Shown: one piece after another, positions 5,194-8,673 of the stretch
Numbering within the stretch: position 1 is the first letter of the stretch
Layout: each line of letters starts with the position of its first letter
Assembly: GCA_012521315.1 (NCBI GenBank)
Contig: JAAYMP010000062.1
Coordinates: 1 to 35,835 of the forward strand
Source of the DNA: Bacillota bacterium
GTDB taxonomy: Bacteria > Bacillota > UBA4882 > UBA10575
DNA length: 35,835 nt
Direction of reading: 5' to 3'
Program-made: the position numbers and the translations under genes
Notes under the pieces: generated by a model
Told to the model about the DNA's origin: nothing
Databases searched by the model: none
Seen by the model: the letters and a program-made list of their open reading frames with translations, nothing else

Positions 5194-5260
5194 CTTGATG
5201 TTTCCTCCTTGCCCCAGTTTTACGATAGCTTATGCGCTTGGCAGAAAGGTGGTGCCTGTC

Positions 5261-5509
5261 TTGGTACCAAGCGACCAAATGTTTCTCGTGGGGCTTCAGG
5301 TTCCAAACCGTGCCGATCTAGCCCCGGCGGTCCAGTCGGTGATCACCAAGTATGGTGACAATATTATAGGCCGTTTTGGCCTTCCCAGTCCCAATAAGGA
5401 AAAAGGATTGATTGTCCTGTTGATGCAAGAAGCGGCGGCGGTCGACCGTCTAACAACCGACCTGACTGAGCTGGCCGATTTACAAATTAGAACTGTTGCC
5501 TTCGATTAA
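5261..5509 (+). CDS. Small ACT/NikR-C-like protein resembling the TM1266 family
   Basis: The 82-residue product reads as one ferredoxin-like beta-alpha-beta unit set. It begins MFLVGLQVPNRADLAPAVQS, continues through a YGDNIIGRFGLP block and a GLIVLLMQ strand, and ends with a helix (VDRLTTDLTEL) and a last strand (QIRTVAFD). This resembles the NikR-C/ACT-like fold of TM1266-type proteins, some annotated as iron-only hydrogenase system regulators. No hydrogenase gene is in the window. I chose TTG at 5261 because AAAGGTGGTG lies six bases upstream; the longer ORF from 5195 overlaps the start of the divergent gene and has no ribosome binding site. A strong terminator follows. The fold assignment rests on motif resemblance only. 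Confidence 0.7.
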   Translation: MVPSDQMFLVGLQVPNRADLAPAVQSVITKYGDNIIGRFGLPSPNKEKGLIVLLMQEAAAVDRLTTDLTELADLQIRTVAFD

Positions 5510-5604: not shown

Positions 5605-7221
5605 ATGAACCCGGACGAGCTGCGAGTTATTCTATCCCGGTTAACCGCCGCCGGTTACCAGGCCCGGGAAGTCCCGGCAAAAGAAGGCTTTATTCTTCTG
5701 GCGAAGGATGAACCTTTTCACCGGAAATTGTTGTTGATCGGGGCAAACTTGTACCAAACAGATCAGTGGCGTGATTTGATCATCAAGACCGTTTTGGCGG
5801 AGCGTAACCAGCGGACCCAGTTGTCGCTGGCGGTTTTGTTGCTGGCGGATGTTGAGGGGGCAGGGGGGCAAAAGGTCCTGGCTTATCTGGGGGAGATGCC
5901 GTGGGTCGAAGCGGTCTGGGAAAAGGCCGGACCCCGGCTTTCAACGTTCAAAGCCCATTTTCGCTGGCAAGTCGAAGAAAGGATCCTTTCCCTGGCGGTC
6001 CAGTTGGCGAATGCGGTCGTGCTGGAGCAGCCAACCGTTCCCGGCAGCCGCCGGGAGGAAACGGGAGGCCGTCCACGGCTTACATATATACTGCTCTTCA
6101 TCAACCTGCTCGTTTTTTTGGCCACAATGCTCCACGGCGAAACCAACCCGACCAGTTTTTTGATTGGCATGGGGGCGAAGTATAATCCCCGTCTGTGGAT
6201 GGGGGAGTATTGGCGGCTCCTGACTCCCCTGTTTTTACATGCGGGGTGGGAACATTTTCTCTTCAGCGCGTTCGCCCTTTTTCAATTGGGTAGTCTGGTC
6301 GAACGTTTTTTTGGAGAAAGACGATTTTTCTGGATTTACTTTGGAGCTGGACTCTTGGGAACGCTCTCCGGCGTGCTTTGTCAACCGGACACGGTAGCGG
6401 TGGGCGTGCCGGGGGCGATTTGCGGACTGGTGGGCGCCCTCCTCTACTTTAGGATTCGCCGGCCGCAAACGGCGCAAGGGTTGTTCGGGCGGAGTTTCTG
6501 GATCATATTGGGTTTGAATCTGGTCCTTGGTTTGGTGCTTCCCGGGATCGATTACACGGGTTTGCTTGGGGGGTTTCTTGGGGGGTTGCTCTGGGCTTAT
6601 GCTTTAGGCCTGGGTAAGAAGGACCAAATCACCGGGCGCTGGTTATGGCGGTGTCTTCTCGGTTTGGTCATCGTTTTAGCCACCATCAAGGCGATGACAC
6701 CGCCCCCGAACAAGTGGTATCTGCCGTTGGAGACCGGCCGCCTTGCGCTGGAACAAGAGGATTATACCAATGCCCTTGCCGCATTGGAGGAGAGCTACCG
6801 TTTAAATCCGCAGTCCGCATTGGCCAGCCGCTTGTTGGCCAGTGCCTACTTGGCGGAAGGCGAGAAGGCGTTAGCGGCTGAAGAGTGGGATAAGGCGGTG
6901 CAATATTTGGAGGAGAGTCAAAAAGTGCAACCCAACGACAGGGCGGCCCGTCCTTTGCTGGCCCGGGCTTATCTCAACCGCAGTTTTCACCGTTATAACG
7001 CCGCTGATCTGGCCGGGGCCGAGGAAGACTGTGCCCGGGGGATTGCGCTGAACCTGAGGATTGAAGGATTCCATTACATTTTGGGTGCGGTCTACTATCA
7101 ACAGGAACGGTGGGCGGACGCCGTTCAGGAACTGGAGACGGTGCTGAGGCTGAACCCGGAGAACCAAGCGGCGCAAGCCCTTTTGGCGGAGTCAAAAAAA
7201 GCGGGTGAAAGTATGAAGTAG
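5605..7221 (+). CDS. GluP-type rhomboid-TPR membrane protein lacking catalytic residues (pseudoprotease)
   Basis: The architecture is that of Bacillus GluP/YqgP: a ~150-residue cytosolic N-terminal domain, a rhomboid membrane domain (~155-345) and TPR repeats from ~370 to the end, 538 residues in all. The rhomboid landmarks are clear: EYWRLLTPLFLHAG, then WEHFLFS and FALFQLG. However, the catalytic serine motif GxSG reads GVPG, so Ser is Pro269. The catalytic His of the last helix (DN-SGHIGG in GluP) reads DYTGLLGG, so His is Leu320. The oxyanion Asn of HxxxHxxxN is Ser. Active rhomboids are Ser-His dyad proteases, so this copy should not cleave peptide bonds. The fold is otherwise well kept and the frame is open, so it is not a decayed pseudogene. 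A binding or membrane-protein quality-control role, as for iRhoms, is inferred. The ATG follows GGGAAGGTG. Confidence 0.9.
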   Translation: MNPDELRVILSRLTAAGYQAREVPAKEGFILLAKDEPFHRKLLLIGANLYQTDQWRDLIIKTVLAERNQRTQLSLAVLLLADVEGAGGQKVLAYLGEMPWVEAVWEKAGPRLSTFKAHFRWQVEERILSLAVQLANAVVLEQPTVPGSRREETGGRPRLTYILLFINLLVFLATMLHGETNPTSFLIGMGAKYNPRLWMGEYWRLLTPLFLHAGWEHFLFSAFALFQLGSLVERFFGERRFFWIYFGAGLLGTLSGVLCQPDTVAVGVPGAICGLVGALLYFRIRRPQTAQGLFGRSFWIILGLNLVLGLVLPGIDYTGLLGGFLGGLLWAYALGLGKKDQITGRWLWRCLLGLVIVLATIKAMTPPPNKWYLPLETGRLALEQEDYTNALAALEESYRLNPQSALASRLLASAYLAEGEKALAAEEWDKAVQYLEESQKVQPNDRAARPLLARAYLNRSFHRYNAADLAGAEEDCARGIALNLRIEGFHYILGAVYYQQERWADAVQELETVLRLNPENQAAQALLAESKKAGESMK

Positions 7222-7527
7222 CGGTCTCCGCCAGTAAGTTGAACAAATAAAAAGCGGGTTGGACCTTGCTTGGCCGGGATTGTTGGCCGGTGGCGGGGAA
7301 AGCTTAATTACGTTATTGTGAATCAGCGGCTGGACGGGCTGTTTTTTTTATGCCGCGGCCAGGTGGGCGGTTGTCCGGGAGCGCGACTGGCACCATGCCT
7401 TTCGCCCTTTCATATCATAAATAATGATTTTCCGTTCGCGGAGAACCCGACACCGATCAACGACCCGGGCGGGGGCAATGAAAGCACGCCCGGGGAAGAA
7501 GAAGCAAAGATAAAGGAGAGGGGAAGC
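7222..7527 (+). other. 306-base intergenic region upstream of spore-envelope genes
   Basis: No gene is supported here. The ORF track runs the next frame back to 7270, but that extension has no ribosome binding site and reads as low-quality sequence. An eight-T run near 7337-7346 follows only a four-base-pair stem, so it is a weak terminator candidate for the rhomboid gene. A sigma-K-like promoter is annotated separately at 7391-7419. Confidence 0.6.
7391..7419 (+). promoter_or_regulatory. Sigma-K-like mother-cell promoter
   Basis: CACC at 7391-7394 and CATATCATA at 7411-7419, separated by 16 bases, match the late mother-cell sigma-K pattern mACm / CATAnnnTA at every defined position. It lies 108 bases before the start of a peptidoglycan-binding protein and ahead of a SPOCS-LysM spore protein, which suits expression late in the mother cell. 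The pattern is short, so chance matches occur. Confidence 0.5.
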
Positions 7528-8673
7528 ATGCCCCGTCTGGCGCTTTTGCCGGTCAACAGGTTACCTTTGGGGAAAAGATGGCTGTCGGTGGGCGGTCGTG
7601 GTCAAGATGTCCGGCAGTTGCAGACACTCTTATCCGCCTTGGGACTGTACGCCGGTGCGATCAATGGTGAATATGACCTTTTAACCCGGGAAGCGGTGAA
7701 AAGCTTCCAAAAAGCCTACCAGCTTCCGGTCGATGGGGTGTGCGGTCCGGACACCCTCAAGCTGCTGGCGGAAAAGGGGATTTACAACCGAACCCTGTTC
7801 ACCAGCGATGCAGGGGAGACCGTTCAAACCCTGGCCGCGCAGTACGGCGTAAGCGGGCGCGCCTTTAAGGATCCGGTGACCCGTTGCCGTCTCCGCCGCG
7901 TTCAGCCCGGGCAGCAAATCATGGTGGAAAGAAGGGAATTGATCTTAGCCTTCGCCGGCGAAGAGCTACCCGGGGAGGCGGGCGGTGAGCAGGCCGCGGA
8001 GGAAAGCTTTATTTATGTAAAAGCCGAGCGGCTCTTGGGGTTGGCGGCGGGTTGGGCGCTCCCGGACGGGGCGCCGTTGGTGGTCGATTTGTCCGGGGCA
8101 AAACTCTCCCGCCAGGTAAAGAAAGCTCTCCGGCGGGTACGCCGGACGATCGACACCGAACTGATCTGGTGGCAATCCTTGGACCATGCTTCTCTGCCCG
8201 CCAATACCGAAGCGGACGCCCTCATCGTTTCTGTACCGGTCTCCGTTGCGGCTGCCGATCCGCTGTCGGTTTGGCCGCGGCAGATTAAAAAGCTCTTAGC
8301 CTATTATCCATGCACGCGCCTGTTTCTCCATTTCGACCTCCACGGCAGGGGTTTGGACGAAAAGGGAGCGGCGTATTGTTTAACCCCGGTGGAGAAAAGA
8401 ATGGCCCGCCTCAACCGGATCGGGGAACCGAAAAGAATTGGCCGGTATGGTTGGCTTTGCTATCGTTACCGGTATAAAGATGAGACGAGAACGGTTTTCA
8501 TCCCCGACCGCTTGACCCTGCGGGGGATCTTGGACCAGGTTGACCGCTTAAATCTGCGCGGGGCCGTCTTTACCGGGCTGGAGAATGGATGGAAAGTCTG
8601 GCAGGAGGAGGGAAACCGCTATTTTTTAGCTACCCCCCGGCTGATGGTAATGAAAGATGGCGGGTTGGCATAA
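7528..8673 (+). CDS. Peptidoglycan-binding protein with degenerate GH18-like C-terminal domain
   Basis: The 381-residue product starts at ATG 7528 behind AAAGGAGAGGGG; the upstream extension in the ORF track is rejected. Residues ~20-85 are a PG_binding_1 domain (GGRGQDVRQLQTLLSALGLY, ending VDGVCGPDTLKLL). Residues ~92-135 look like a worn LysM module (AGETVQTLAAQYGV ... VQPGQQIMV). The rest, from ~175, has alternating strands and ends GAVFTGLENGWKVWQEEG, which recalls the last strands of GH18-type barrels in spore-cortex enzymes such as SleL/YaaH. I see no DxxDxDxE motif, so hydrolase activity is doubtful. No signal peptide is present, as is common for proteins built into the spore from the mother cell. 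It shares its orientation and probably its transcript with the next gene. Confidence 0.75.
   Translation: MPRLALLPVNRLPLGKRWLSVGGRGQDVRQLQTLLSALGLYAGAINGEYDLLTREAVKSFQKAYQLPVDGVCGPDTLKLLAEKGIYNRTLFTSDAGETVQTLAAQYGVSGRAFKDPVTRCRLRRVQPGQQIMVERRELILAFAGEELPGEAGGEQAAEESFIYVKAERLLGLAAGWALPDGAPLVVDLSGAKLSRQVKKALRRVRRTIDTELIWWQSLDHASLPANTEADALIVSVPVSVAAADPLSVWPRQIKKLLAYYPCTRLFLHFDLHGRGLDEKGAAYCLTPVEKRMARLNRIGEPKRIGRYGWLCYRYRYKDETRTVFIPDRLTLRGILDQVDRLNLRGAVFTGLENGWKVWQEEGNRYFLATPRLMVMKDGGLA

Follow-up and report, generated by a model that had tools for sequence, protein, structure and literature searches.

Active rhomboids use a Ser-His dyad. Such a dyad is present in Bacillus subtilis YqgP (GluP), which binds FtsH and cleaves MgtE, and whose dead form S288A, made in the laboratory, still presents MgtE to FtsH (PMC7231995). 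This adaptor role needs the N-terminal domain of YqgP as well as an unobstructed active site (PMC7231995). On the basis of the S288A mutant, it has been proposed that YqgP combines the functions of a protease and a pseudoprotease and gives a clue to the origin of derlins, YqgP-FtsH being put forward as a bacterial analogue of the latter (PMC7231995). Derlins are pseudoproteases of the rhomboid fold that deliver membrane proteins to an AAA machine, and iRhom1 and iRhom2 of animals likewise have this fold but no working dyad; the Escherichia coli rhomboid GlpG, the numbering of which is used below for alignment columns, is active. In a limited literature search we found no natural bacterial pseudo-rhomboids of the GluP/YqgP type.

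The gene described here is predicted to code for one. It lies in a window of 35,835 nucleotides (the whole stretch of DNA analyzed), which is contig C134 of a metagenome-assembled genome of a Bacillota bacterium (G000; 1.89 Mb, 94.5% complete, 255 contigs); the closest named records are a 'Hydrogenispora sp.' and Bacillota metagenome genomes. Like YqgP, the product has a cytosolic N-terminal domain of the same fold, a rhomboid core, an extra helix and a TPR tail; unlike YqgP, it has neither residue of the dyad, and unlike S288A it is natural. The features referred to in the text are as follows, with the basis of each in brackets.

5605..7221, + strand: GluP/YqgP-type rhomboid without the catalytic dyad (538-aa open reading frame; Pfam Rhomboid and TPR; synteny)
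5605..6054, + strand: cytosolic alpha/beta N-terminal domain, residues 1-150 (AlphaFold2 model; fold match 6r0j)
6070..6624, + strand: six-helix rhomboid core, about residues 156-340 (Pfam PF01694, 104 bits; model against GlpG and iRhom1)
6265..6267, + strand: Ser221 for the oxyanion Asn (GlpG Asn154), AAC to AGC (alignment, codons)
6406..6411, + strand: Val268-Pro269 for the Ala-Ser of GASG, Pro269 being in the nucleophile column (GlpG Ser201) (alignment, codons)
6421..6423, + strand: Cys273 for Phe (GlpG Tyr205 position) (alignment, codons)
6562..6564, + strand: Leu320 (TTG) for the catalytic His (GlpG His254; CAT in the sister species), three base changes (alignment, codons)
6637..6696, + strand: seventh transmembrane helix, residues 345-364 (helix in the model)
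6718..7215, + strand: C-terminal TPR domain, residues 372-537 (Pfam TPR matches; model helices with pLDDT of about 90)
7270..8673, + strand: peptidoglycan-binding-domain gene, about 49 bases 3' of the GluP gene (Pfam PF01471; synteny)

The open reading frame translates without interruption, and the region 5' of the gene, including the ribosome-site-like GAGGGAAGG, is conserved. Pfam Rhomboid matched residues 200-334 (E 1.8e-28, above the cut-off of PF01694) and TPR families matched residues 376-529. In a model of the full-length protein (pLDDT 75) the core matches iRhom1 with a Z of 19 and GlpG, which shares the six-helix core but has another N-terminal domain and no TPRs, with a Z of about 16. 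The HxxxxH motif and the helix-packing glycines are kept, as expected for the rhomboid superfamily: H212, H217, G267, G270, G323 and G327 correspond to GlpG H145, H150, G199, G202, G257 and G261, which are among the conserved rhomboid residues (PMC2989971). To the extent that the prediction can tell, the fold tolerates the substitutions; the loops of the rhomboid have low pLDDT and the shape of the cavity at Pro269 is poorly modelled. When the N-terminal domain was modelled alone (AlphaFold2; pLDDT 82), its top fold match, first of 998 chains, was the N-terminal domain of B. subtilis YqgP (6r0j; Z 7.4 over 127 of 150 residues), a Z below 8 being middling, so that the YqgP-like nature of this domain has moderate support; the YqgP domain was not among the best 50 Foldseek matches listed. 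The seventh helix and the C-terminal TPR domain are those of the GluP/YqgP type. Thus Pfam, the models and the kept motif residues agree with the original prediction, made from the DNA alone, that the rest of the fold, the N-terminal domain and the TPR tail are intact.

The best rhomboid sequence matches in the PDB are iRhoms, which also carry a Pro in the nucleophile motif (GPAG). However, the iRhoms, which bind ADAM17, carry a long N-terminus in the cytosol and a large iRhom homology domain in the lumen, whereas here there is no insertion of iRhom-homology-domain size within residues 156-366, 202 residues align to an iRhom1 chain range of over 400, and the N-terminal domain is YqgP-like. iRhom is not orthologous to GluP, and the common loss of catalysis is convergent. 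Derlins differ in their AAA partner and in their location (the eukaryotic ER), and are not close in sequence.

Alignment with the orthologues places the Pro of GVPG (Pro269) at the Ser of GxSG, the Leu320 of TGLLGG in the column of the catalytic His and Ser221 in that of the oxyanion Asn, just as had been read from the sequence. These residues sit on the exact catalytic columns, where the family members are gap-free, and the alternative alignment that had been allowed for, with another Ser and His in the active site, was not found, none being aligned at these columns. In addition, Val268 stands for an Ala (GlpG position 200) and Cys273 for a Phe. All changes are in-frame base substitutions, up to three per codon, and neither a frameshift nor a lone miscall accounts for them. 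G000 changes 10 of the 82 rhomboid-domain columns that are invariant across ten orthologues (G005, see below, was set aside), and these include all four of the core catalytic columns, i.e., the Asn, the residue before the Ser, the Ser and the His (hypergeometric P = 1.2e-4); none of the 82 differs in the sister species, G002. The loss of active-site residues is beyond chance. Active proteases of MEROPS family S54 have the GxSG Ser and the His of the last core helix; with Pro269 and Leu320 in their places, the protein is predicted to be without proteolytic activity.

An orthologue was found in all seven congeners and in eight further family members (37-81% identity), and in 13 related genomes its position is conserved, downstream of mfd, spoVT and a TM1266-like gene. 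The latter, a small gene (TM1266-like proteins being hydrogenase-system regulators), is at 5195-5509 of the window and lies upstream of GluP throughout the family. The seven congeners and all other same-family orthologues retain the His and the Asn, and all but G005 retain the Ser; Pro269 and Leu320, the conservation of which had been raised as a check, occur in no orthologue found. On this comparison of sequences, the active-site loss is confined to one species; catalysis was probably lost after the split from G002, a judgement that we make jointly with that of retention as a pseudoprotease. The original prediction of a retained pseudo-rhomboid stands as regards retention under purifying selection (see below), and the role that it suggested, escorting substrates to another protease without cleavage, is known by experiment for YqgP (PMC7231995), but an established lineage is not what was found, since the congeners keep the dyad. 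The G005 orthologue reads GATG (Ser to Thr) with the His intact, and is under strong purifying selection (branch omega 0.13); the equivalent GlpG mutant, S201T, is inactive (PMC3093617). A separate loss is seen in a more distant GluP-type rhomboid of the same order, that of G016, in which Pro replaces the catalytic His and Cys stands in the column of GlpG Gly199, with the Ser intact. The order thus has two more GluP-type rhomboids each lacking one dyad residue, whereas among 219 genomes surveyed across the phylum dyad loss was seen in none of about 25 matching rhomboids outside the order; a class-wide search added no genomes. With three losses inside the order and none beyond it, recurrent loss is suggested rather than proven, and the picture is apparently one of species-level, recurrent loss and not of a conserved pseudo-rhomboid family.

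Codon models were fitted to eight sequences of the genus. For the whole gene, the G000 terminal branch has a dS of 0.31, a dN of 0.078 and a dN/dS of 0.25, with a background of 0.18, and omega = 1 is rejected (lnL -9281.1 vs -9308.2; 2dlnL of about 54). Branch omega is 0.16 for the rhomboid domain against a background of 0.09 (omega = 1 rejected, 2dlnL 35.8) and 0.26 for the TPR tail (2dlnL 15.3 vs omega = 1); for the N-terminal domain it is 0.49 against 0.25, a difference that is not significant, and neutrality for this domain alone is not firmly rejected (2dlnL 3.4). Neighbouring genes likewise have a moderately long branch (dS 0.20-0.26), and the species is therefore simply somewhat diverged. 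Of the 11 changes at otherwise invariant sites nine are in the rhomboid domain and none in the N-terminal domain, where 0 of 25 invariant positions changed. The change of the His codon from CAT to TTG took three base changes, so that the loss is unlikely to have been the last event. When neutral drift since the loss was modelled, the catalytic codons needed a decay fraction (f) near 1, i.e., most of the branch, whereas no more than about 0.1-0.2 is compatible with the remainder of the gene; a joint neutral-decay fit was worse than independent rates by a 2dlnL of about 16. The gene is kept under purifying selection, unlike an ordinary decaying gene, and fold, loss of the dyad and retention by selection are together those of a rhomboid pseudoprotease. 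Recombination with a foreign dead domain is not supported, as every segment groups G000 with G002.

Orthologues with a normal Ser and His do exist, which the original prediction had taken as a pointer to error or recent decay; the codons speak against error and against neutral decay. That sequencing, assembly or strain mixture altered the motif is very improbable, even in an assembly fragmented into 255 contigs: the active site differs at six or more distinct positions by in-frame substitutions, some of which changed two or three bases of a codon, and the open reading frame is sister to G002 in all its segments and otherwise under purifying selection. Hardly credible is a changed catalytic mechanism, with another residue for Ser or His; only two new Cys (259 and 273) arose on the G000 branch, neither is at the nucleophile position, the last core helix has no His, and the oxyanion Asn is gone. 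A weightier alternative, though still an unlikely one, is that the protease became dispensable late on the branch and the gene is turning into a pseudogene, the low dN/dS then mostly predating the loss. The restriction of the loss to one species, an assembly among the smallest of the genus (1.9 Mb, in a range of 1.9-2.6 Mb), the somewhat raised whole-gene and N-terminal omega and the failure to find MgtE in the assembly would all fit such relaxation, as would the decay fraction that the rest of the gene allows. However, the gene has neither a stop nor a frameshift, its invariant N-terminal positions are unchanged, and its catalytic codons changed like a neutral site over most of the branch, with three bases replaced in that for His. 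Conditional on the loss of Ser and His (because the gene was chosen for having lost them), the probability of recent decay with f set to 0.1-0.2 is 0.006-0.08, which makes very recent decay unlikely if still conceivable.

The product could also be a non-proteolytic partner of a cell-wall enzyme, working with the adjacent peptidoglycan-binding protein instead of FtsH. Staphylococcus aureus ActH/Rbd is reportedly a YqgP homologue that serves as partner of the amidase LytH. The peptidoglycan-binding gene directly adjoins GluP in the congeners and is its downstream neighbour in 12 of the 13 syntenic genomes (it was not found on the examined stretch of G012); its product is 72% identical to that of the sister species, against 81-99% for its neighbours. 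Nevertheless, the two genes are about 1.8-2 kb apart in other genera of the family, and Pfam recognised neither an amidase domain nor any other known catalytic domain in the 7270-8673 product. ActH and LytH are mentioned in the YqgP study (PMC7231995), and we consider a role of this kind quite improbable here.

We favour, with a probability of about 0.6, a naturally evolved YqgP-like pseudoprotease that lost catalysis in one species, was retained, and acts with FtsH. FtsH is present in the G000 genome, and a dead protein of the YqgP type that keeps its domains and occurs alongside FtsH is most simply read as an adaptor without scissors; by homology to YqgP, the protein is probably an FtsH substrate adaptor. 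The rhomboid cavity would still recognise unstable or mis-metallated polytopic membrane proteins, the cytosolic domain may sense conditions, and clients would be handed to the membrane AAA protease FtsH, which would do the degrading. Several observations weigh against this reading: the loss is known from a single metagenome-assembled genome of one species, branch omega is raised in the N-terminal domain, on which the adaptor role of YqgP depends, YqgP needs an unobstructed active site and the Pro269 cavity is the poorly modelled part, and MgtE is absent from the assembly. A natural GluP without Ser, His and Asn, under selection, next to a sister species with all three, is a natural experiment on the idea developed for YqgP, and makes testable whether adaptor function alone suffices to keep a bacterial rhomboid.

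MgtE (PF01769) was not found in the G000 assembly and is present in all seven congeners; CorA was found in no congener, and across the eight genomes searched MgtA gave no match above cut-off. The place of the rubrerythrin-MgtE block is where contig C22 ends and contig C74 starts; the locus is thus at a contig break and its loss indistinguishable from an assembly gap. The 25 bases at the end of C22 occur nowhere else in the G000 genome. In the sister species, rubrerythrin and MgtE lie between the DAHP synthase/rubredoxin end and PEPCK; C74 begins in a type III restriction-modification locus. Co-loss of MgtE with the dyad as a rule was ruled out: MgtE is present in G005 and G016, the two other genomes with an incomplete dyad.

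A second, active rhomboid, for which a search had been suggested, did not turn up, as a profile search of the G000 genome (94.5% complete) found no second PF01694 protein and the other superfamily member detected lacks the dyad. The latter, of 235 aa (contig C174:5417-6121), has weak matches to DUF1751 (TMEM115-like) and DER1, is conserved in all eight genomes searched, and belongs to a group in which the Ser/His dyad is absent from every member compared. Within the limits of 94.5% completeness, G000 seems to have rhomboid-fold proteins and no competent rhomboid protease, and the DUF1751/DER1-like proteins are possibly a bacterial derlin-like family. A broader proposal, tentative and to our minds possible rather than probable, is that the GluP-type rhomboids of this order have lost catalysis repeatedly and are maintained as dedicated pseudoproteases, the FtsH-adaptor role and not cleavage being selected; G000, without a competent rhomboid, might then run a derlin-like pathway with two pseudoproteases, GluP and the Der1/DUF1751-like protein. 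The G002 copy of the DUF1751/DER1-like protein adjoins a gene for a coiled-coil protein with a terminal C4 zinc ribbon.
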